From positions 1-64,000 of the forward strand of contig JAIQFF010000028.1 of NCBI GenBank assembly GCA_020073395.1: DNA of 64,000 bases, written 5' to 3'. Shown piece after piece: positions 42,451 through 56,865 of the stretch (position 1 is its first letter; every line of letters begins with the position of its first letter). The position numbers and the translations under genes are program-made. The notes below the pieces were generated by a model that made no database searches, was not told the origin of the DNA, and saw only the letters and a program-made list of their open reading frames with translations. The DNA comes from Terriglobia bacterium. GTDB taxonomy: Bacteria > Acidobacteriota > Terriglobia > Terriglobales > Acidobacteriaceae.

Positions 42451-42738
42451 GGCAGAGAATAAACACTGCCGCGTCCGACCAGAAAACACGCGGTGGAAGC
42501 ACGTGTGAACCTCAACCATCTTCTCTTGTCCTCCAACCAGCAGGTTTCCCTGGAATTACAAAATAGCCGCGGAAGTCCGCGAATCTCCGATTCTTACGCA
42601 CTGGCTCAGCGCCAGGCCGATCCCGAAGATTGGCATCATTGCATTGTGTTCCCAATCACAGACAGTTGGTTCACAGAGGGAGTAGCTTATGGTCGGGTTC
42701 TCCTGAGGGAAGAACCTGACAACGAGGGGGGTGCCAAA
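42451..42738. other. Interval of 288 bp before the kinase start
   Basis: The frame of the kinase is open from 42493, but the 82 residues encoded (NHLLLSSNQQVSLELQN and so on) lack kinase or domain character. The TTG at 42739 has GAGGGGGG eight bases upstream and is the better start. No repeat or RNA structure stood out. Confidence 0.5.
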
Positions 42739-45042
42739 TTGGACCCAAGCCCAAGGTTCCCTCCCAAGGTGGTCGAGCAGTTTGGTCCCGGCGAAGTGCT
42801 GGGGCACTACCGTATCGCCGACAAGATCGGCGCTGGCGGGATGGGAGAAGTTTATCGCGCCCGCGATGAGCATCTGGGACGGGATGTCGCGATTAAAGTC
42901 CTGCCTACAGGCACCCTCGCCGACCATCCCACGCGTAAGCGCTTCCGCCAGGAGGCCGATGCTCTCTCCAAGCTGAACCACCCCAATATCGCAACCATCT
43001 ATGACTTCGACACTCAGGCAGGAGTGGACTTCCTGGTGATGGAGTACATCCCCGGAGAAGCGCTCAGTGACAAGCTCTGTCAGGAGCACCTGTCGGAGAA
43101 GGAAGTTGTGCGGCTTGGCGAGCAACTGGCCGAGGGTCTGGCTGCAGCCCACGAACAAGGGGTCATCCATCGGGATCTTAAACCGGGCAACTTACGAATG
43201 ACCCGCGATGGACGATTGAAGATTCTGGATTTCGGATTGGCCAAGCTGGTGCGCCGTCCCAGTCCGATGGCCGACACCGAGAGTTCTCTCGACACGACGG
43301 AAGTATTCGCGGGCACGCTGCCCTATATGGCCCCGGAGCAATTGCGCGGTGCCGCGGGGGATGTACGTACCGACATCTACTCTGCCGGGATCGTGCTGTA
43401 CGAGCTGGCTACCGGGCGCCTGCCCTTCCCGGAGAAGCTTCCGACGGCTCTGTCGGACGACATCCTGCACCAGGCGGTGCCTCCACTCGGTCGCTTGCGG
43501 CCTGAGCTCTCGTCACGATTCGAAGAAATCGTATTGAAGTGCCTGGAGAAAGAAGCCGAGAACCGCTATCAGTCGGCGAAAGAACTGGCGGTGGACCTGC
43601 GGCGGGTCACCTTACCCGCTTCAACTGCAAGTGCCGGTGTCGCTGCCGCTCGCAAACGAACTCGCTCAAGACGTATTCGTTCAGTCGCCGTGCTGCCACT
43701 GAGCAATTTTTCCCGCGATCCTGAGCAGGAGTACTTTGCCGACGGCATGACAGAGGCCTTGATCTGTGACCTGGCCAAGCTCCGAGGTGTGAAAATAACC
43801 TCCCGCACTTCAGTGATGCGCTACAAGGGCTCTGCGACGCCGCTGCCCCAGATCGCCGACGAACTGAACGTCGACGCAGTGGTGGAAGGGTCGGTCATGC
43901 GAGTCGGACGGCGTGTACGCATTACCGCCCAACTTATCCACGCTGCTTCCGATACACACCTGTGGGCGGAGAGCTACGACCGCGAATTCGAGGATGTGCT
44001 CCTGGTGCAGAGTGACATCGCGCGTGCCATTGCCCGGGAGATCCAGGTCGCCATAACGCCCGAGGAAGCAAAGCGACTGAGCACTGCGCGCCGCGTCAAT
44101 CCTGAGGCTTATGAGGCCTACCTCAAGGGCCGCTTCTACTGGTACAAACTTTCTCGAGAACACCTCGACACTGCCCTCAAGTACTTCGAGATAAGCCAGG
44201 AAAGGGATCACCTCGACCCCCTGGCCTACGCCGGCATTGCGTGGGTGTGGGCCTCCCGCGGCGACTGTGGGCTCGTGCCTCCCCGCGAGGCATTTCCGAT
44301 GGCCAAGGCGGCGGCATTAAGAGCGCTTGAACTGGATGACTCTCTTGCTGAAGCGCACTTGAGCCTCGGCATGATTCGAACCTATGGATGGGAGTGGGAC
44401 GAAGCGGCGAAAGAGTACCAACGCGCAATCGAACTGATGCCCAACTCTGCCGAGGCCCACTTCTTCCTGTCGGATTTGTTGCTCTCGCGGCAACGTGTGG
44501 ACGAGTGGAAGACACATATCGAGCGAACCCTGGAGTTGGACCCGCTCAATTTCTTTTTTCAGTGTTTCTACGGTTGGCACCTGTCCTATTTGTGCCGGTA
44601 TGACGAGGCGATCCTCGAACTTCGCAAGGCGCTCAAGACCGAGCCCAATCTTCCCGCCGCGCATCTGCGTCTATGGGGCGCTTTCTGCAAAAAGGGAATG
44701 TACGAGGAGGCGGTGGCAGAAGCAAAGACCTTTTTTGAGGTGTCCGGGGATCAGGAAATTGCGCAGCTTCTTCAGTGCGGCTATGCCCGCGGCGGATACG
44801 TGGAGGGGATGCGTCTGGCGGCGGAGAAGCTGAACGAGCGTTCCCATCTGACCTACGTCCAACCCACGCAGATCGCTCGCCTCTACGCTCATGCCGGCGA
44901 CGGGGACCATGCCCTCGAGTGGCTGGAGAAGGCCTACACGGAGCGCCTCCCTGCGATGGTCCATCTCGGCGTCGACCCCGACTGGAGTTCTCTCCGGAGC
45001 GAGCCGCGCTTTCAGGATTTGATGCGTCGCTTGAATCTTTAG
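42739..45042 (+). CDS. Serine/threonine protein kinase with TolB-like and TPR regions
   Basis: A 767-residue protein. A Hanks-type kinase domain covers residues 23-290: glycine loop GAGGMGEVY (31-39), Lys53 in VAIKVL, catalytic HRDLKPGN (144-151), DFG (164-166) and YMAPEQLRG. A basic linker (RKRTRSRRIRS) leads to a TolB N-terminal-like domain (VAVLPLSNFSRDPEQEYFAD, ADELNVDAVVEGSV, THLWAESYDR), then TPR repeats (for example SLAEAHLSLGMIRTYGWEWD, SAEAHFFLSDLLLSRQRVD). No transmembrane helix is visible, so it is probably cytosolic. This architecture is common in acidobacteria; targets are unknown. Confidence 0.85.
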   Translation: MDPSPRFPPKVVEQFGPGEVLGHYRIADKIGAGGMGEVYRARDEHLGRDVAIKVLPTGTLADHPTRKRFRQEADALSKLNHPNIATIYDFDTQAGVDFLVMEYIPGEALSDKLCQEHLSEKEVVRLGEQLAEGLAAAHEQGVIHRDLKPGNLRMTRDGRLKILDFGLAKLVRRPSPMADTESSLDTTEVFAGTLPYMAPEQLRGAAGDVRTDIYSAGIVLYELATGRLPFPEKLPTALSDDILHQAVPPLGRLRPELSSRFEEIVLKCLEKEAENRYQSAKELAVDLRRVTLPASTASAGVAAARKRTRSRRIRSVAVLPLSNFSRDPEQEYFADGMTEALICDLAKLRGVKITSRTSVMRYKGSATPLPQIADELNVDAVVEGSVMRVGRRVRITAQLIHAASDTHLWAESYDREFEDVLLVQSDIARAIAREIQVAITPEEAKRLSTARRVNPEAYEAYLKGRFYWYKLSREHLDTALKYFEISQERDHLDPLAYAGIAWVWASRGDCGLVPPREAFPMAKAAALRALELDDSLAEAHLSLGMIRTYGWEWDEAAKEYQRAIELMPNSAEAHFFLSDLLLSRQRVDEWKTHIERTLELDPLNFFFQCFYGWHLSYLCRYDEAILELRKALKTEPNLPAAHLRLWGAFCKKGMYEEAVAEAKTFFEVSGDQEIAQLLQCGYARGGYVEGMRLAAEKLNERSHLTYVQPTQIARLYAHAGDGDHALEWLEKAYTERLPAMVHLGVDPDWSSLRSEPRFQDLMRRLNL

Positions 45043-47283: not shown

Positions 47284-48345
47284 ATGTCATCTAATGGATT
47301 CCATTCTTCGACGCGCCTGCACAATCTGAGATCGCTGTTCAGCATATTTTCCAGCGACCTTGCCATCGACCTGGGGACGGCCAACACGCTGGTGTACGCG
47401 CGGGGCAAGGGCATTGTGGTGAACGAGCCCTCCATCGTGGCCATCAACAAGAACACCGGAGAAGTCGAGGCCGTGGGCAAAGAAGCCAAGGAGATGTTGG
47501 GCCGCACGCCTGGCAACATCGTGGCCATCAAGCCTATGAAGGATGGCGTCATCGCCGACTTCAAAGTCACCGAGAAGATGCTCAACTACTTCATCCAGAA
47601 GGCGCACAACCGCAAGATGCTGGTACACCCGCGCATCGTGATCGGGGTGCCTTCGGAAATTACCCAGGTGGAAAAGCGCGCGGTCATGGACTCCGCTTAT
47701 CGTGCCAAGGCCAGCGAAGTGTACCTGGTGGAGCAGGCGATGGTGGCCGCCATCGGCGCCGGACTGCCCATCACCGAGCCCAGCGGCAATATGGTCGTGG
47801 ATATTGGCGGCGGCACCACCGACATCGCGGTGATTTCACTCAGTGGCATTGTTTATTCCCGCTCCGTGCGCATGGCTGGCAACCAGATGGACGAAGCGGT
47901 GATGAACTACCTCAAGCGCAAGTACAACTTGCTGGTTGGCGAACGGACCGCCGAGCAGATCAAGATGGAGATTGGGTCCGCGTATCCCCTGGAAAAGCCC
48001 CTGACCATGGAAATCAAGGGCCGGAACCTGATAGAAGGCGTACCCAAGACCATCACGGTGGACGACAGTGAAATCCGCGAGGCCCTGAGCGAGTGTGTTT
48101 CGACCATCATGAATGCTATCCGGGTGGCGCTCGAACGTACCCCGCCGGAACTGTCCGCGGACATCAGCGACCGCGGCATTGTGCTGACCGGCGGAGGGGC
48201 GCTACTCAAAAATCTCGACAAACGTATTCGCGAGGAAACCGGGTTGCCGGTCTCCATCGCCGACGATCCGCTATGCAGCGTGGTCCTGGGCACGGGCAAG
48301 ATGCTCAGCGATTTCAAATTGCTGCGGAAAATTTCGATCGAGTAG
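47284..48345 (+). CDS. mreB: Rod-shape determining protein MreB
   Basis: A 353-residue actin-like ATPase of normal MreB length. Nucleotide-binding motifs: DLAIDLGTANTLVYARGKGI (phosphate 1), MVVDIGGGTTDIAVISLSGI (phosphate 2) and GIVLTGGGALLKNLDKRIRE (adenosine). The filament forms under the inner membrane and guides lateral wall synthesis. It begins the cluster mreB-mreC-mreD-mrdA-rodA. A short repeat gap separates it from mreC, so an additional promoter there is possible. Confidence 0.96.
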   Translation: MSSNGFHSSTRLHNLRSLFSIFSSDLAIDLGTANTLVYARGKGIVVNEPSIVAINKNTGEVEAVGKEAKEMLGRTPGNIVAIKPMKDGVIADFKVTEKMLNYFIQKAHNRKMLVHPRIVIGVPSEITQVEKRAVMDSAYRAKASEVYLVEQAMVAAIGAGLPITEPSGNMVVDIGGGTTDIAVISLSGIVYSRSVRMAGNQMDEAVMNYLKRKYNLLVGERTAEQIKMEIGSAYPLEKPLTMEIKGRNLIEGVPKTITVDDSEIREALSECVSTIMNAIRVALERTPPELSADISDRGIVLTGGGALLKNLDKRIREETGLPVSIADDPLCSVVLGTGKMLSDFKLLRKISIE

Positions 48346-48353
48346 TTGTGAAT

Positions 48354-48496
48354 CAGTTTCTAGTTTCCGGTTTCTAGTTTCCCGTGTGTTCAGGGGAAGA
48401 CGGGCGTCCTCGCCCGTCCCGCGCCAGTCGTCGCAACCATCCATGGTGCCGCCGATGTCGTGAGACCAGAAACTGGAAACCAGAAACCTGAAACTG
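48354..48496. repeat. Inverted repeat with AGTTTCTAGTTTCC arms and an inner hairpin
   Basis: agtttctagtttccggtttc at the left pairs with gaaactggaaaccagaaacc at the right; the middle has gacgggcgtcctcgcccgtc. It fills the gap between mreB and mreC. Its position could reduce or terminate transcription between the two. Confidence 0.6.
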
Positions 48497-48503
48497 TAAT
48501 TCC

Positions 48504-49739
48504 ATGGAAAATCTGATGAGCCGCTACCGCAACGTCACCATCCTGGTGGCCATCCTGTTTGTGCAGGTGCTGGGACTGGCGGTGCAGGTCAAGCGGCGGT
48601 CCGGCGCCGACGAATCCACCCGAATCATACGCCTGTGGACGGTCAGTGCAGTCACTCCTCTGGAGAAAGCCCTGGTCTGGTGCCAGAACGGCCTGGGCAG
48701 TATCTGGAACAACTACGTTTACCTGCGCGGAGTACGGCAGGAAAACCGCGAGCTGAAATTCGAGATCGAGCGCCTCCGACTGGAGCAGGTGCGGCTGTCC
48801 GACGACGCGCAGCAGGCGCGCCGGCTGCAGGCCTTGCTGAGCTTCAAGGAAACTTACATCGCCAAGACCGTGGCCGCACAAGTCATCGGTTCCAGCGGCA
48901 GCGAACAGTCGCGGTCCGTCTATATCGACAAGGGCACGTCCGCGGGGGTTGACAAAGATATGGCGGTGATTACCGCCGATGGCTTGGTGGGCAGAGTTTT
49001 GCGGGCGTATGGGTCCTCGGCACAGGTACTCCTCATCAACGACCAGAGCAGCGGAGTGGGAGTGATTCTGGACAAGTCGCGCCTACAGGGGGTCATTAAA
49101 GGGACAGCATCCGGCGAGGTCGTCTTGGAAAAGGTGATGACCGACGAACAGGTGACGCCGGGAGAACGGATCGTGACCAGCGGCGGCGACCTGATCTTCC
49201 CCAAGGGCGTTACCGTGGGGACGGTGATGAAGGTTACTCCGGGCGCGGACCTTTTTCTCAATATCCGGGTAAAGCCGTCCGCCAACCTGAGCCGCCTGGA
49301 AGAAGTCCTGGTGATTACAAAGAAAGAGGATCGCGCGCCAGCAGTGGCGGAGACTAATTCAGTACGGGCGGTGGACATTCTGACCCAGCGTCTGCCTTCG
49401 GTCCCTGACAAGCCGCCGGCGGCCGTGAGCCAACCACCCGCACCTGTAACCCCCGCCCCAACTCCCAAAGTCTTAATCGCCTTGCCCAAGCCAAGGAGCG
49501 AAGCGGGCGTGAACAATTCAGCAGCCAGCTCCGCCGCTGCAACAGCCATGAAGCCGGCGACTGGGCATAAGCCCGCCGCTGCAGACAAGCCGGCATCGGA
49601 GCAGCCGGCCAAGTTGGCGGCCGGCAAGCCTGCCGGGCGTGTGGCCTCGAAACCTGTGGTCGCGGCGCCTGGGTCGTCAGCCGTGCCATCCAAACCCGGA
49701 CCATCGCAACCTGGGACTGCGGAGGATATACCGCACTAG
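48504..49739 (+). CDS. mreC: Rod-shape determining protein MreC
   Basis: A 411-residue protein with an N-terminal transmembrane helix (NVTILVAILFVQVLGLAVQV), a coiled coil (ELKFEIERLRLEQVRL) and the MreC beta-barrel domain (VIGSSGSEQSRSVYIDKGTS, GSSAQVLLINDQSSGVGVIL, VTSGGDLIFPKGVTVGTV). It is long because of a Pro/Ala/Lys-rich tail (residues about 295-411), absent from E. coli MreC (367). It is expected to link MreB with PBP2 and RodA in the elongasome. MreD starts two bases after its stop. Confidence 0.94.
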   Translation: MENLMSRYRNVTILVAILFVQVLGLAVQVKRRSGADESTRIIRLWTVSAVTPLEKALVWCQNGLGSIWNNYVYLRGVRQENRELKFEIERLRLEQVRLSDDAQQARRLQALLSFKETYIAKTVAAQVIGSSGSEQSRSVYIDKGTSAGVDKDMAVITADGLVGRVLRAYGSSAQVLLINDQSSGVGVILDKSRLQGVIKGTASGEVVLEKVMTDEQVTPGERIVTSGGDLIFPKGVTVGTVMKVTPGADLFLNIRVKPSANLSRLEEVLVITKKEDRAPAVAETNSVRAVDILTQRLPSVPDKPPAAVSQPPAPVTPAPTPKVLIALPKPRSEAGVNNSAASSAAATAMKPATGHKPAAADKPASEQPAKLAAGKPAGRVASKPVVAAPGSSAVPSKPGPSQPGTAEDIPH

Positions 49740-49740
49740 C

Positions 49741-50259
49741 GTGCCCATCACTTACACATCTCAGGAGCAGGTAGAGGTTTACCGGTTCAGCGCCCCGGCG
49801 GCCATCCTCATTCCGCTGGTTGCGCTTTTTCTGCAGGCGTTTCTGCCGCTGCGGCTGCACTTCTTCTCTCTGTTCGACCTGCCGCTGCTGGTGGTGATTT
49901 TCTTCGCCGTGGCGCGGCGGAGCCAGGTTTCCGGCCTGGTTACCGGATCGCTGATCGGCCTGCTGCAGGATTCGCTCACCCATCAGCCCATCGGGATTTA
50001 CGGGATCGCAAACACGGTGGTGGGGTTCGGGGCCTCGTCCCTGGGTGCCAAGCTGGACGTCGAGAACGTTGGGGCCCGCTTCCTGGTGACCCTGTTTTTC
50101 TACGCCGTGCACGAGGTCGTGTATTTCACGGTGGCGCGCGGCCTGGTGAAGTTGACCCTGCAGTGGAGTTGGGGGCACGAAATAGGTGGCGCATTGATTA
50201 ATGCCGCGACTGCGGCCGTCCTGTTTACCTTGCTGGACCGGTTTAAGCAGAGAGCGTGA
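49741..50259 (+). CDS. mreD: Rod-shape determining protein MreD
   Basis: A 172-residue inner-membrane protein with five or six hydrophobic segments (ILIPLVALFLQAFLPLRLHF, LPLLVVIFFAVARRSQVSGL). GTG 49741 comes one base after the mreC stop and fits normal MreD length; the open frame upstream lies in mreC. The family motif TGSLIGLLQDSLTHQPIGIY matches the conserved region of MreD. It works in the elongasome. Confidence 0.9.
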   Translation: MPITYTSQEQVEVYRFSAPAAILIPLVALFLQAFLPLRLHFFSLFDLPLLVVIFFAVARRSQVSGLVTGSLIGLLQDSLTHQPIGIYGIANTVVGFGASSLGAKLDVENVGARFLVTLFFYAVHEVVYFTVARGLVKLTLQWSWGHEIGGALINAATAAVLFTLLDRFKQRA

Positions 50260-50263
50260 GGCA

Positions 50264-50500
50264 GTCATCAGTCTTCCGTCGTCAGTCCTCAGCCAAAAGC
50301 CAACACCCGCCCTTAGAGGAGCTGCGAAAAGTCCAATCGTCTATGGCCTTGGGTTACCCGCGTCACCAATCCTTTGACAGCGAGCCAGGATTACAATGAA
50401 GTTAACCTCGACCCCAGTCTGAGATTCGCCAGCCTTGATGGTCGAAATCTTGCGCGATAAGAATCGGTTGAAGACTGAAGACTGACGACTGACGACTGAC
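50264..50500. repeat. Inverted repeat between mreD and mrdA
   Basis: gtcatcagtcttccgtcgtc near the left end is mirrored by gactgaagactgacgactg at 50470-50500. The 240-base interval contains no gene and has a long AT/GC mixed interior. Confidence 0.5.
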
Positions 50501-50502
50501 CC

Positions 50503-52452
50503 ATGTTTGGCCGCGACGAAAAAGTATCGGGAACCCGCCTGACTGCGGTGCAATACATGATCCTCGTCGTTTTTCTGGTGCTGGCCTACGGCTTGTGGCG
50601 GCTGCAGGTGGTGCAGAGCGACTTCTACTCGGCCCTGGCGGAAAAGAACAAGACTCGCGAAGTCCCCATTCTGGCGCCGCGTGGCAAGATTCTCGACCGT
50701 GAAGGCCGCGTCATCGTCGACAACTATCCTTCCTTTACGGCTTTGCTGCTGCGCGACTCCACCCGCGATCTGTCTGGGGACGCGGACATGATCGCTCAGG
50801 GCCTCCATCTCGATCCCAAGGAAGTCCGGGAGCGCCTGCACAAATTTGCCGGCACGCCGCAGTACCAGCCCATCTATCTCAAGGAAGACATCACTCCGGA
50901 TGAGCTGGCTTTTATCGAGTCTCACCACAACGAATTGCCCGAACTGGACACCATCGTGGCCCATCGCCGGCTGTACCCGCGCAACGGGTTCATGGCCCAC
51001 CTCGTGGGCTACGTGGGCGAAGTCAGCGAGCAGATGCTGAATCAGCCACGTTGGGAGCTCTACAATCCCGGCGACGTGGTAGGCAAGTCGGGCGTGGAAC
51101 TGCAGTACAACCAGGTCTTGATGGGCAAGAATGGCTCGCGCCAGGTCCTGGTGAACAGCAAAGGAAAGGAAATGGGAGAGCTGGACCAGAAGCCAGCGGT
51201 CCCCGGACATAACCTCAAACTGACGCTGGACATTGATCTGCAGATTGCCGCCGAAGAAGCCATGGGAGACAAGAACGGGGCCATGATTGCGATGGATCCG
51301 CACACCGGAGAAATCCTGGCCATGGTGAGCCGGCCAACTTTCGATCCCAACGATTTCGCGGTTCGAATCTCACGCGCCGAGTGGGCCAAACTGGTGACCG
51401 ACCCTGACAAACCGCTGCTCAACAAAGCCATTCAGGCGCAACTCGCGCCCGGCTCGACCTTCAAGATCCTCATGTCGGTGGCGGGCTGGCAGGAAGGCAT
51501 CGCCCAGACTCTGAACGTGCACTGCAATGGCGGGGCCACGTTTTATGGCCGGCGGTTCGGCTGCTGGGTGAAGACCGGACACGGCGCGGTTGATCTGACC
51601 AAGGCGATCTACCAGTCCTGTGACGTCTTCTTTTACACGCTGGCGGAAAAACTCGGCATCGATCGCATCTCCAAATACGCCACCGCCATGGGGTTGGGCC
51701 AGAAGACAGGTATAGATCTCCCCGAAGAAGCCACCGGTGTCATGCCCTCGGAAGAATGGAAGATTCGCAATTTCAAGCAAAAGTGGTACGCGGGCGAAAC
51801 CATTTCAGTCGGCATCGGACAGGGCGCGGTGGCGACCACGCCGGTACAGTTGATGCGCGCCATCTCCGCCATCTCGATGGACGGCCGCATGGTGGTGCCG
51901 CACGTCGCCAGCCCGACCGGCCTGCCCCCGGAGTACCTTGAGACCCATCACTATACGGACGTGAAGAATATTCCGATCGACCCGGGCGGATTCAACCTGA
52001 TCACGGACGCGATGGCGCGGGTATTGCTGCCCGAGGGCACGGCGCCTTCTGCGCACATCCCGGGAGTCGATATAGCAGGAAAGACAGGATCGGCCCAGAT
52101 CGTATCGCTGAAGGTGCGGGCGCTGCATGCCAACAACGAGGCGCTCAATCAGAATGGATGGTTTGTAGGATTCACGCCCCGGCGCAATCCGGACATCATC
52201 GTTGCCGTTTTGTTCGAAGGCGGCGAGCATGGCAAGCTGGCGGCCCGCCTGGCCACCCAGGTCATCAAAGCCTACGTGGACAAGCAACGCCGGCAACCTA
52301 CTAAGGTGGCCGATAGCTCCGGCAAAGTGGATGTCGGCGCGGTCTGGAATGCGGGTTCAGGCGATGACGATGATCTCCATGGCGGGCATTTCGATTTAGA
52401 GGTACCAAAGTCGCGCTTGCCGTTCGCAGTAGCGGCGCCGGGATTAGAGTAG
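50503..52452 (+). CDS. mrdA: Penicillin-binding protein 2 (PBP2, MrdA)
   Basis: A 649-residue class B PBP. The N-terminal helix is AVQYMILVVFLVLAYGLWRL; then a pedestal domain and the transpeptidase domain with Ser318 of STFK (APGSTFKILM), the SxN-type motif as SCD (YQSCDVFFYT) and KTG at 527-529 (GKTGSAQ). It cross-links peptidoglycan during elongation, paired with the RodA glycosyltransferase encoded next. The SCD variant of SxN occurs in PBP2 proteins. Confidence 0.95.
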   Translation: MFGRDEKVSGTRLTAVQYMILVVFLVLAYGLWRLQVVQSDFYSALAEKNKTREVPILAPRGKILDREGRVIVDNYPSFTALLLRDSTRDLSGDADMIAQGLHLDPKEVRERLHKFAGTPQYQPIYLKEDITPDELAFIESHHNELPELDTIVAHRRLYPRNGFMAHLVGYVGEVSEQMLNQPRWELYNPGDVVGKSGVELQYNQVLMGKNGSRQVLVNSKGKEMGELDQKPAVPGHNLKLTLDIDLQIAAEEAMGDKNGAMIAMDPHTGEILAMVSRPTFDPNDFAVRISRAEWAKLVTDPDKPLLNKAIQAQLAPGSTFKILMSVAGWQEGIAQTLNVHCNGGATFYGRRFGCWVKTGHGAVDLTKAIYQSCDVFFYTLAEKLGIDRISKYATAMGLGQKTGIDLPEEATGVMPSEEWKIRNFKQKWYAGETISVGIGQGAVATTPVQLMRAISAISMDGRMVVPHVASPTGLPPEYLETHHYTDVKNIPIDPGGFNLITDAMARVLLPEGTAPSAHIPGVDIAGKTGSAQIVSLKVRALHANNEALNQNGWFVGFTPRRNPDIIVAVLFEGGEHGKLAARLATQVIKAYVDKQRRQPTKVADSSGKVDVGAVWNAGSGDDDDLHGGHFDLEVPKSRLPFAVAAPGLE

Positions 52453-52640
52453 CAACGGCATACTGCCGCCGAGACGGCGGCACTACTTGCGAGAGTGGGG
52501 GAGGAATCAAAGGTAGTACTCAAAGACTCGGACGGCGGAGGTTGGAAAGTCGTTGCCCAACAACCAAGGGCCAACGACCAAGGACGAATTCCCGGACGAC
52601 TGAAGGCGGACGACCGACGGCTGAAGTCTGACGACTAGAA
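52453..52640. repeat. Small repeats before rodA
   Basis: Contains a short hairpin actgccgccgagacggcggc, a copy of the ggccaacgaccaaggac arm also seen at 14859-14955, and gactgaaggcggacgaccga arms. I see no gene in it. Confidence 0.5.
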
Positions 52641-52644
52641 CTCC

Positions 52645-53730
52645 ATGTCACGCTATATTTCATTTCGCGATTTTGACTGGCTGCTCTTCATCTTTGTGCT
52701 GATGATCTGCGGTCTGGGCGTGATGGAGATTCGCAGCGCCACCTCCCATACCAAATTTGCCGGGGCGCATATCCGGCAGATCTACTGGATTGTTGGCGGA
52801 ATCATCGGCATGTTCCTGGTGAGCCTGGTCAACTACCAGAAGCTGCTGGACCGTGTGCACTGGCTCTACATTGGCGCCATCGTCTCTCTGATGAGCGTGA
52901 TGCTGTTCGGTCAGAAGTATCTGGGAGCCCGGCGTTGGATCAAGATGCCGGGAGGAGCGCACTTCCAGCCGTCGGAATGGGTGAAGCTGATCCTGATTCT
53001 GGCGGTGGCCAAGTACTTCGCCGACCTGCACCAGCGGGACCTTACCTGGCCGGATTTCATGAAGGCGGGTGCCATCGTCCTGGTACCCATGCTGATGGTG
53101 CTGCGGCAGCCCGATTTAGGAACTGGTCTTACCTACCTGCCGATCGCCATCATCGGCCTGTTTCTGGGCGGGGTCCGCTTCAAGCAGGCAGCTATTGTGA
53201 CCATCGCGGCAGCCCTGCTCCTGCCACTGGCATGGCATGCTTTGAAGCCCTATCAGCGTGATCGTCTTACCAGTTTCATGCACCCGGAGGCCGACAGCCA
53301 AGGCTCGGGATACCAGGTTAACCAGTCATTAATCGCCGTTGGATCGGGCGGCATATGGGGGAATTCGGAGGGTTCCCAAACCCATTTAGCGTTTTTACCC
53401 GTCCCACAAACGGACTTTATCTTCGCCGCCTTCGCCGAGGAACATGGTTTTGTAGGAGCCCTGGCGGTAATGCTGTTATACTTTATAGTGCTGATGCGAT
53501 TGACTCAGAACGCGCAAACGGCGCCCGACCGCGCTGGCACGTTCGTAGTGATGGGTGTGGTGGCAGTGCTTAGCTTCCATATCCTGGTCAATGTCGGCAT
53601 GGTGGTTGGCTTTATGCCGGTCACCGGAATACCCCTGCCGCTGATGAGTTATGGCGGGTCTTCTGTCCTGTTTATGTTTCTGGCGTTGGGCATTGTAATG
53701 AATGTCCGCATGCGCCGTTTCGTGAACTGA
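52645..53730 (+). CDS. rodA: RodA, SEDS-family peptidoglycan glycosyltransferase
   Basis: A 361-residue integral membrane protein of SEDS type with about ten helices. Key family blocks are ARRWIKMPGGAHFQPSEWVK, VPMLMVLRQPDLGTGLTYLP, PEADSQGSGYQVNQSLIAVG, and the last-helix region VTGIPLPLMSYGGSSVLFMF. It polymerises glycan strands in the lateral wall together with PBP2. It follows mrdA in the same direction across a repeat gap of about 190 bases. Confidence 0.95.
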   Translation: MSRYISFRDFDWLLFIFVLMICGLGVMEIRSATSHTKFAGAHIRQIYWIVGGIIGMFLVSLVNYQKLLDRVHWLYIGAIVSLMSVMLFGQKYLGARRWIKMPGGAHFQPSEWVKLILILAVAKYFADLHQRDLTWPDFMKAGAIVLVPMLMVLRQPDLGTGLTYLPIAIIGLFLGGVRFKQAAIVTIAAALLLPLAWHALKPYQRDRLTSFMHPEADSQGSGYQVNQSLIAVGSGGIWGNSEGSQTHLAFLPVPQTDFIFAAFAEEHGFVGALAVMLLYFIVLMRLTQNAQTAPDRAGTFVVMGVVAVLSFHILVNVGMVVGFMPVTGIPLPLMSYGGSSVLFMFLALGIVMNVRMRRFVN

Positions 53731-54111: not shown

Positions 54112-56865
54112 ATGACGAGAGAATTATTTGTGTCTTCCACGCCCCACGAAACCAAAGTGGGGCTGGTCGAAGACGACCTGCTCGCTGAAATCTACCTCGA
54201 ACGCGAGAACGAATACACCCTGGCAGGTTCCATCTACAAAGGGCGGGTGACCCGCGTACTTCCAGGAATGCAATCGGCTTTTGTAGACATCGGTTTAGAG
54301 CGCGATGCGTTCCTCTACGTCTCCGACTTTATGGAGTTGGAAGATTCCGAGGACCTGGACGAAGTTCCCACCAACCGGCCGGCGCCGGAGCGCTACCAGC
54401 CGCAAGCGCAGACTGAAGCCCATGCAGGTGAATTCTTTGCTGCTCCTGCGCCGGCAGAACCGCAAGTCCAGGAACATTCGGAAGCCGAACCGGGAAATAG
54501 CGAGCCGTCTGCCGCTGGAGAACCGCGCGACAATCGTGGAAGTTTTCGAGGCCGCCGTCGCCGCAGGGGACGCCGTGGCGGACCCATGCCGGAAACGAAG
54601 TTCGCCCACCCCGAAGCGGAGCCGCCGCGAGAAGCCCCTCGCGCTGAGCGGACGGAGCGCCCTGAACGATCTCAGTTCTCCGAACGAGGGGGACGGCCAG
54701 AACGGCCGATGAGGACGGAACGGCCCGAGCGTTCCGAATACGGACCACCGCCGGGATATCAGCCGATCATCCTGCCCGGAGAGTCCATCTCAAAATATCG
54801 AGGACTGGGACAGAGCAGGCCCGCGCCCGCAGGGGAGACGCCTGCAGCACCGGCACAGAACCTTCCGGCACGGCCTATCGCGGAGATATTCGCGGACGAC
54901 GAGCCGATCTTTGCTTCTGCCTCTGCTCCGCCGGCTGAAGCGCAGCCTCGAGCTCACGCCGAAGCCCCAGCGCAGCATCACCAAGCGCCGAGTGACGACA
55001 CGTCGAGCGCGTGGGACCGCGAACAGCAACGCCTCCACCAGATGAACGTGGCCGCTGTGTTCGGCGGTGAAGCGGCGGAAGAAGAAGACGAAGAAGATGC
55101 CAGCGAAGGCGATGCCGACCAGACGGATGAGAAGCTGACGATGGTGATTGAGCATTCCGACCAGCCCGCGCACGCTGCTGCTCCGGGGACGGTGGAGGAA
55201 GAAGAGATCGAAGAGGAAGAGGCGGACCTGGCCCACTACGTTGAGGAGCTCGAGGAAGATGCTGCCTTCGAGGAACTCGAAGAGGAGACCCACGCCGCCG
55301 GGGAGCACGAACCGCCGGAACGGGAAATCGCTGCCTCCGCGGAGCCCACATTGGTCGATGCTGTGCCGTTCTCCGCTGAACCAGTTTCTTCGGAAGCGAT
55401 CGACGTAGCGGCGGCGGACGAAGTTGACGAAGAAGCGGAAGACGAAGCCGAGCTGGACGAAGCCCAGGCGGAAGCGGAAGCAGTCCTGGCCGCTGAAGCC
55501 GGGGGCACAGGAATGACCGAAGCTCGCGCCGAAGTTCGTGCGCCGGCAGGGACGGCGGGCTACACCCAGCGCGCGCCGCGTCCGGGATACGATCGCCGGC
55601 CCCAGCGCGGCGGCCGCCGCGGTGGCGGCGGACGCCGGTCGCGCAGTAACCAGCAACAGAGTATGCCGTTGATCACCGACCTGCTCAAGGAAGGGCAGGA
55701 GATTCTTGTCCAGATCGCGAAAGAGCCCATTGGCAAGAAAGGCGCCCGCATCACCAGCCACATTGCGTTGCCGGGCCGCTTCCTTGTGTACATGCCAACC
55801 GTGAATCACACCGGCGTCTCGCGCAAGATTGCTTCTGAAGAAGAGCGCCAGCGGCTCAAGCGCATCATCCAGAGCGAGCGCGAGAATGGACACGGCGGAT
55901 TTATCGTGCGCACCGCGGCCATGAATGCCGCAGAAGAGGATCTGCGCGCCGACATCCGCTTCCTGAAGGGATTGTGGACTGAAATCAAGTCGCGCGCTGA
56001 TGCCGGCAAAGGTCCAACTCTCATCTATCACGATCTCAACGTAGTTGAGCGCGTGCTGCGCGATCAGGTCACGTCCGACTTCTCCGCCATCTGGGTGGAC
56101 AGCGACGAAGAGTACGAACGCATCCTGCGCTTCGCCAATCGCTTCCAGCCTGCGCTGGTCAAGCGGGTCAAGCTCTACACCAAGGAAACACCGCTCTACG
56201 AGCAATTTGGCCTGAGCGAGGAGATCAACAAGGCGCTCAAGTCGAAAGTGTGGCTGAAGAGTGGCGGCTACATCGTCATCAACCAGACAGAGGCGCTGGT
56301 TGCCATCGACGTGAACACCGGCAAGTACGTGGGCAAGACGACGCGCCTTGAAGACACCATCGTCAAGACCAACGTGGATGCGATCAAGGAAATCGTGCGC
56401 CAGATCCGTCTGCGCGACCTGGGTGGCATCATCGTGATCGATTTCATCGACATGGATGAACGCCGCAATCGCCAGAAAGTCATGCAGGCCCTGGAAGAGG
56501 CCCTGCGCAGCGACCGGGCGCCATCCAAGGTCCTTCAGTTCAACGACTTCGGGTTGGTGGCCATCACTCGCAAACGGGTGAAGCAGTCGCTCGAGCGCAC
56601 CATTGGGACGCCGTGTCCGTACTGCCAGTCCACCGGCTTCGTGAAATCTGTGACCACGGTGTGCAACGAGATCTATCTCGAGATGCGCAAGATCGCGAAG
56701 CACCTGGAGCATGCCGACGTGATGCTGCGGGTCAATCCCGACGTGGCCAAGGCGCTCAAGGCCAACAACGGCAAGGCTCTGATCGAGATGGAAGAGATGA
56801 CCAAGAAAACCGTGATCGTGAAGAGCGATCCGGCGCTGCATCAGGAGCAGTTTGATATCAACTGA
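54112..56865 (+). CDS. rng: RNase E/G-family endoribonuclease with a long insertion in the S1 domain
   Basis: A 917-residue protein. The N-terminal part begins the S1 domain (AGSIYKGRVTRVLPGMQSAF, residues 38-57), which is interrupted from about residue 80 to 515 and resumes with MPLITDLLKEGQEILVQIAK and GKKGARITSHIALPGRFLVY. The insert is disordered: Arg-rich runs (RGRRRRRGRRGG, GGRRGGGGRRSRS), a very acidic tract (EEEIEEEEADLAHYVEELEE) and a proline-rich motif GYQPIILPGESISKYRG. The RNase H and DNase I-like parts follow with the catalytic aspartates in IDVNTGKYVG and IVIDFIDMD, and the zinc-link PCPYCQSTG. It follows the mre/mrd genes, as rng follows mreBCD in some proteobacteria. RNase G versus E function cannot be decided. 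Confidence 0.88.
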   Translation: MTRELFVSSTPHETKVGLVEDDLLAEIYLERENEYTLAGSIYKGRVTRVLPGMQSAFVDIGLERDAFLYVSDFMELEDSEDLDEVPTNRPAPERYQPQAQTEAHAGEFFAAPAPAEPQVQEHSEAEPGNSEPSAAGEPRDNRGSFRGRRRRRGRRGGPMPETKFAHPEAEPPREAPRAERTERPERSQFSERGGRPERPMRTERPERSEYGPPPGYQPIILPGESISKYRGLGQSRPAPAGETPAAPAQNLPARPIAEIFADDEPIFASASAPPAEAQPRAHAEAPAQHHQAPSDDTSSAWDREQQRLHQMNVAAVFGGEAAEEEDEEDASEGDADQTDEKLTMVIEHSDQPAHAAAPGTVEEEEIEEEEADLAHYVEELEEDAAFEELEEETHAAGEHEPPEREIAASAEPTLVDAVPFSAEPVSSEAIDVAAADEVDEEAEDEAELDEAQAEAEAVLAAEAGGTGMTEARAEVRAPAGTAGYTQRAPRPGYDRRPQRGGRRGGGGRRSRSNQQQSMPLITDLLKEGQEILVQIAKEPIGKKGARITSHIALPGRFLVYMPTVNHTGVSRKIASEEERQRLKRIIQSERENGHGGFIVRTAAMNAAEEDLRADIRFLKGLWTEIKSRADAGKGPTLIYHDLNVVERVLRDQVTSDFSAIWVDSDEEYERILRFANRFQPALVKRVKLYTKETPLYEQFGLSEEINKALKSKVWLKSGGYIVINQTEALVAIDVNTGKYVGKTTRLEDTIVKTNVDAIKEIVRQIRLRDLGGIIVIDFIDMDERRNRQKVMQALEEALRSDRAPSKVLQFNDFGLVAITRKRVKQSLERTIGTPCPYCQSTGFVKSVTTVCNEIYLEMRKIAKHLEHADVMLRVNPDVAKALKANNGKALIEMEEMTKKTVIVKSDPALHQEQFDIN

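Follow-up and report, generated by a model that had tools for sequence, protein, structure and literature searches.

A scaffold-like, predicted disordered insert within the S1 domain of an RNase G-type enzyme of Terriglobia

The 64,000-nucleotide stretch of a Terriglobia contig that we analysed (hereafter, the window) encodes a ribonuclease of the Rne/Rng family whose S1 domain is interrupted by about 440 residues of predicted disorder. Within this insert lies a nine-residue linear motif, LPGES[IL]xKY, which, judged from alignments and genome scans, surpasses the catalytic core in conservation and is gene-specific within the class. On balance, we favor the view that the S1 loop of an RNase G-type enzyme has grown here into a disordered arm doing the job of the RNase E tail. 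We read the insert as an internal, independently evolved scaffold for the degradosome and for RNA capture, carrying a class-specific docking motif through which a partner would bind. In other words, a soil-acidobacterial RNase has a very long floppy segment running through its RNA-binding domain, which suggests a docking platform for RNA decay placed inside the enzyme and not on its tail.

The enzyme and its S1 domain

The gene (54112..56865, forward strand) is a stop-free open reading frame encoding 917 amino acids, and the protein is the sole match to PF10150 in a profile search of the 5.54 Mb assembly. Its scores place it in the RNase E/G family, both for PF10150 (345.7 bits, with a curated cut-off of 25.5) and for TIGR00757 (487.3 bits, cut-off 325.95); the NCBIfam equivalog of RNase G, NF008689, gave 503.5 bits in two stretches, below its cut-off of 594. 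The PF10150 domain, comprising the 5' sensor and the DNase I-like catalytic part, spans 55768..56580 (forward strand). D733, N735, D777, D780, C835, and C838 are all invariant, as expected of the catalytic and Zn-link residues of an RNase E/G enzyme. Going by the roles known from E. coli RNase E, we take R600 and T601 to belong to the 5' sensor and the four D and N residues to the catalytic part, and C835 and C838 of the CPYC sequence (56614..56625, forward strand) presumably form the Zn-link. The protein stops at the thioredoxin-like RNase_E_G_Thio domain (PF20833; 56611..56859, forward strand), with no C-terminal tail.

Upstream, on the same strand, are mreB (47284-48345), mreC (48504-49739), mreD (49639-50259), mrdA/PBP2 (50503-52452), and rodA (52645-53730), the last gene before the RNase gene. 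The resulting order, mreB-mreC-mreD-mrdA-rodA-rng (47284..53730, then the RNase gene), together with the absence of a tail, fits RNase G, of which we take the mre/rod neighborhood, known for E. coli rng, to be a mark. The window also contains a 683-codon open reading frame antisense to the RNase gene (54790-56841, reverse strand), probably a by-product of codon bias, and a Ser/Thr protein kinase with TPR repeats (42493-45042, forward strand).

The phmmer alignment with E. coli RNase E breaks into two separate stretches, residues 3-72 aligning to 3-72 and residues 517-854 to 86-423, and we therefore place the insert at about residues 77-516 (54340..55659, forward strand). It is preceded by residues 1-76, holding the N-terminal strands and the first half of S1 (54112..54339, forward strand; delimited by phmmer, with pLDDT mostly >90 in the first model described below), and followed at about residues 517-560 by the second half (55660..55791, forward strand; delimited by phmmer, AlphaFold, and structure alignment). 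Measured by one script throughout, the loop has 442 residues in the window protein, compared with 14 in E. coli RNase G and 11 in E. coli RNase E. E, A, P, and R abound in it; there are 42 arginines versus 3 lysines, and no cysteine. The initial annotation, made from the letters of the DNA, had placed about 435 disordered residues in S1 at 54340-55665. The boundaries and length given above agree well with this, and the insert has low confidence in both of our AlphaFold models, with pLDDT <50 across nearly all of residues 84-510 in the first.

An insert within S1 presupposes that the flanking parts together rebuild the domain, a point on which the initial annotation had staked its reading and for which it had called for structure prediction. 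The first AlphaFold model, based on a 53-row alignment (A2) of insert-bearing and short-loop relatives, has a core mostly of pLDDT >90 and closes the domain. By VIA structure alignment, residues 39-559 of this model match the E. coli S1 domain (1smx_B) over 78 of its 81 residues (Z 11.8, rmsd 2.4), and residues 35-643 match the C. crescentus S1/5'-sensor structure 4OXP over 179 residues (Z 20.5, rmsd 2.7). Global Foldseek fits to full-length RNase E rows had an rmsd of 13.9-18.8; the S1 domain alone fits well by VIA. The prediction was divided, as a second model, using the 62 Terriglobia rows only, left S1 open (mean pLDDT 56, pTM 0.29). Taking the better-supported model together with the phmmer alignment as decisive, we conclude that, in model and alignment, residues 1-76 and 517-560 together build S1.

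Conservation of the insert across Terriglobia

The protein was matched in 58 of the 60 genomes sampled from the window's family, and the enzyme was found in 147 of 151 genomes of the class sample, nearly always as a single copy; one genome of the window's family (G370) has two RNase E/G genes, on contigs C26 and C71, with the motif in each. After removing 12 incomplete or unmeasurable rows and 8 duplicates from the 136 Terriglobia rows, we obtained 116 measurable, non-redundant loci. All of them carry the insert, with lengths from 244 to 816 residues (median 441), and no more than 0-2 residues follow the last aligned core residue. The loci come from many assemblies and their reading frame is unbroken and free of stops, and we accordingly rejected an assembly artefact or chance; this also answers the concern, raised with the original proposal, that the insert might be missing in close relatives.

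The linear motif GYQPIILPGESISKYRG occupies residues 215-231 (54754-54804, forward strand), with the core LPGESISKY at residues 221-229 (54772-54798). In the 62-row Terriglobia alignment (A3), the invariant columns of the insert are limited to R146, L221, P222, G223, E224, S225, K228, and Y229. Mean conservation comes to 4.10 bits in the motif, compared with 1.49 over the insert and 3.56 elsewhere in the protein, so that a motif originally picked out by eye proved to be the best-conserved part of the insert. Its codons turn over freely at synonymous positions, from which we conclude that selection acts on the peptide. Every one of the 116 inserts carries an LPGE-type motif and one or more Arg/Lys-rich blocks, a count made with a pattern that fixes LPGE, so that these four columns are conserved by construction there; alignment A3 is free of this constraint. 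The strict motif was found in 97 of 98 non-redundant inserts, the exception (L099) reading LPGETLSKY. By the strict pattern there are one to three copies per insert; at least two are present in 15 of the 116 inserts, one of which (L102) has a pair directly in tandem.

We searched for the motif at the DNA level with a degenerate pattern of 27 bases, confining the surveys to the phylum Acidobacteriota. Among 198 genomes of the phylum it was found in 20, every one a member of the window's family, which contributed 21 genomes, and it was not found in the 177 genomes outside that family, with no match to the reversed control pattern; one of these 177, the Terriglobia genome G228, has a variant of the motif (L142). 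In the 151 class genomes, there were 129 sites in 125 genomes, again with none for the reversed control. By a scripted check of this class sample, 127 of the sites are followed, 459-1752 bases downstream, by a PF10150 match, and the remaining two fall within 5' halves of RNase genes split at contig ends. Thus, all 129 strict sites in the class sample belong to the RNase gene, and within the range of these surveys we rejected the idea that the motif is a general docking code of other proteins. Of the 22 class genomes with the enzyme and without a strict site, 20 were inspected (the other two, G285 and G313, have short open frames), and all 20 have a relaxed LPGE form (e.g., LPGEFIAKY, LPGEALAKY, or LPGESLSKF).

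The other landmarks of the insert are charged. Arg-rich block I, RGRRRRRGRRGG, lies at residues 146-157 (54547..54582), an acidic tract at about residues 320-457 (55069..55482), and Arg-rich block II at about residues 476-510 (55537..55641), all on the forward strand. Across the 62 Terriglobia rows, R146 of block I is invariant and R148, R149, R152, and R155 are nearly so, as are R476, R487, R490, and R495 of block II. In 101 of 116 inserts, an Arg block comes first, followed by the motif, the acidic maximum, and a further Arg block; outside the motif and the Arg blocks, sequence is mostly poorly conserved. Hence, the scaffold-like anatomy that had been suggested for the insert (two Arg-rich blocks, an acidic block, and a short linear motif) can all be located in it. 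Charge segregation in the window insert exceeds that of shuffled sequences (z 7.6, reached by 0 of 1000 shuffles), and the blocks alternate in the order -+-+. Across the class, the median z is 5.0, 95 of 115 inserts are unmatched by any of 100 shuffles, and 97 of 115 have the same order. As yardsticks, the same script gave z 2.2 for the RNase E tail of E. coli and 11.1 for that of S. meliloti. The window insert has the alternating charge patches that characterize BR-body scaffolds. Charge blocks are, however, a widespread feature of disordered tails, and their order is not by itself proof of a scaffold.

Ancestry of the insert

We built a maximum-likelihood tree of the enzyme core from 77 rows, rooted at the midpoint, in which the E. 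coli and Bacteroides rows form long branches. The tree has two sides, one of tailed RNase E and one of RNase G, split with support of 100/99 (92/94 for the tailed rows alone). On the tailed side are the RNase E proteins of E. coli and S. meliloti and the acidobacterial proteins with C-terminal tails, whose loops measure 8-15 residues. The RNase G side includes E. coli RNase G, short-loop and N-extended proteins, and all those with an S1 insert; the window protein groups with E. coli RNase G, away from RNase E, as expected of an RNase G ortholog. The plasmid-borne rne-like locus of S. meliloti (L205, pSymB) served for core and tail alone, because the N-terminal half of its S1 domain was not found in the frame of the catalytic part. 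All 34 rows with an S1 insert can be explained by one change on the tree, on a branch of 42 rows (100/99) that includes five with loops of 35-85 residues. We therefore conclude that an RNase G-type enzyme gained the insert in a single event or in a few. The initial annotation had regarded the insert as possibly a degradosome scaffold relocated into a loop. The scaffold-like anatomy stands, but relocation is not supported: in the tree, the insert-bearing protein belongs to the RNase G side and is separate from the tailed RNase E from which a scaffold would have moved, and tailed RNase E paralogs in other acidobacterial families keep an ordinary loop. What the tree indicates instead is growth of a loop on the RNase G side, where no tailed RNase E turned up.

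Elsewhere in the phylum, extra sequence is found at the N-terminus (families f33, f40, and f44) or at the C-terminus (mostly in families with two copies). The N-extended proteins (L167 and L168 in f33, L161 in f40, L173 and L174 in f44) belong to the RNase G side and have extensions of 259-596 residues and no S1 insert. Other S1 inserts have motifs of their own. A strict FER[IV]xD[DE]-like pattern occurs one to three times per insert in L127 and L157 (f20), L165 and L166 (f31), L128 (f59), and L148 (f10). Two copies of [IVL]LPxx[LIWF], perhaps a remote variant of LPGES, are present in each of L147 (f9), L156 (f19), L182 (f52), L189 (f60), and L191 (f63). The expectation from shuffled sequences is near zero for both patterns, a figure that is descriptive because both were spotted by eye in the same sequences before counting. 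Inserts of at least 100 residues were found in 18 of 33 one-copy families versus 0 of 13 two-copy families (Fisher p 0.0005), in a table compiled by hand in which one copy was measured for most two-copy families and from which the matched families f4, f7, f12, f27, f29, f30, f32, f37, f38, f53, and f67 were left out. Because the test ignores phylogeny and the tree needs one origin, we count this contrast as consistent evidence at most.

Possible function and comparison with known systems

How might such an arm work? The S1 loop adjoins the RNA entrance, and an arm placed there could keep RNA beside the 5' sensor. The Arg-rich blocks may capture RNA at this S1/5'-sensor entrance, by analogy with the AR motifs of P. 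aeruginosa described in the accessible parts of PMC11964227, and the alternating charge blocks may favor RNA-driven condensation, as in the alphaproteobacterial BR-bodies treated in the portions available of PMC12691583. The LPGES motif would dock one partner from the decay machinery, with PNPase or RNase J as the first candidates. The genome encodes both, and a profile search of it returned no RNase Y above cut-off; the enzyme is therefore probably the central decay endonuclease. We also put forward, with somewhat less than even confidence, that the Acidobacteriota evolved a degradosome scaffold of their own by starting from RNase G, not RNase E, and threading a disordered arm into S1, that Terriglobia use LPGES[IL]xKY as their docking code, and that other families wrote other codes (FER[IV]xD[DE], or paired [IVL]LPxx[LIWF]) into the same loop.

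The insert could, as an alternative, be mainly a cis-acting regulator that gates RNA by folding its acidic block or its LPGES motif onto the S1/5'-sensor channel or onto a neighbor in the tetramer, with the Arg blocks as counter-charges. No external partner would then be necessary, and the motif block reaches a pLDDT of 66-70 amid a region mostly <50. There are also precedents in the parts of PMC4245959 available to us: a helix of the C. crescentus S1 insert enters the predicted RNA site, where its acidic side chains might imitate RNA, and the Arabidopsis enzyme is less active once its S1 insert is deleted. Against such gating, the loop is short in RNase G-type enzymes from elsewhere in the Acidobacteriota (22-43 residues in many families), one to three motif copies suit multivalent docking better than a single intramolecular site, and neither model has the contact with confidence. 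As to self-docking of the motif, this moderate pLDDT in both models speaks neither for it nor against it. We consider regulation in cis unlikely, although it deserves to be kept in mind.

It is less probable still that the arm serves RNA capture and condensation while docking no specific protein, and that the LPGES motif makes a local contact with RNA or membrane. The nearly invariant Arg-rich blocks and the charge blocks would suit such an arm, for which the BR-bodies (PMC12691583, in the portions available) offer a precedent. Yet LPGES[IL]xKY, to judge from its letters, is neither strongly basic nor amphipathic, and it is better conserved than the Arg blocks. We give very little credit to the possibility that the insert is low-constraint filler drifting in an insertion-tolerant S1 loop, or an artefact of assembly. 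The insert does range in length from 244 to 816 residues, and most of it shows little conservation, but the motif and the Arg blocks are kept class-wide with synonymous codon turnover, and an artefact is at odds with 116 loci from many assemblies without a stop or frame break. Under the preferred reading of an internal docking scaffold, the partner should be easy to fish out, given a short and invariant motif that is confined to a single gene. More broadly, one phylum presents, in one enzyme family, scaffold-like regions in three places (tail, N-terminus, and S1 loop) with clade-specific motifs. This series is a natural test of what a degradosome scaffold needs, and of whether it makes a difference where the scaffold sits with respect to the active site.

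The classification of RNase E homologs is reportedly covered in a review by Ait-Bara and Carpousis. A full-text literature search, with subscription journals mostly outside its scope, returned no titles or abstracts on acidobacterial RNase E/G inserts or on the LPGES motif. The word-initial letters LPG do not occur in the main text of PMC11964227, the motif is unlike any docking motif in the published passages we examined, and by eye the published NDPR and REER motifs were not recognized in the window insert.

The nearest parallels in position are the S1 insertions of alphaproteobacterial and plant RNase E, which, according to the available parts of PMC4245959, measure 50-150 residues and are highly diverse in sequence; in C. 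crescentus, RhlB binds an RNase E fragment containing the insert. Like these (4OXP), the insert described here is in the S1 domain, consistent with an equal position in the fold, and it is charged and predicted disordered. It differs in its length (442 residues, 244-816 in the class), in its tail-less host enzyme from the RNase G side, and in its invariant LPGES[IL]xKY. The insert-bearing rows form one RNase G-side group and S. meliloti RNase E goes with RNase E, so that the tree, built without plants or C. crescentus, gives no sign of common descent. In its disorder, Arg-rich blocks, short linear motifs, and charge patterning, the insert resembles the C-terminal scaffold of gammaproteobacterial RNase E (E. 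coli and P. aeruginosa; passages of PMC4435900 and PMC11964227), where, in P. aeruginosa, Arg-rich and short motifs provide the binding sites for RNA, RhlB, and PNPase. Unlike that scaffold, it is located inside S1 and in the other paralog; the long non-catalytic C-terminal tail of the E. coli type has no counterpart in class members. It shares alternating charge patches with the disordered region through which RNase E of C. crescentus and S. meliloti forms BR-bodies (PMC12691583, in the portions available), from which it is distinct in location and lineage. With ordinary RNase G (E. coli rng), the enzyme shares its side of the tree and the lack of a tail, but its loop has 440 residues instead of 14. 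S1 insertions as such and disordered RNase E scaffolds were already known; what is new, as far as our literature searches reach, is the size of the insert, its RNase G lineage, its being the only long non-catalytic region of the enzyme, and its class-wide, nearly invariant, gene-specific motif.
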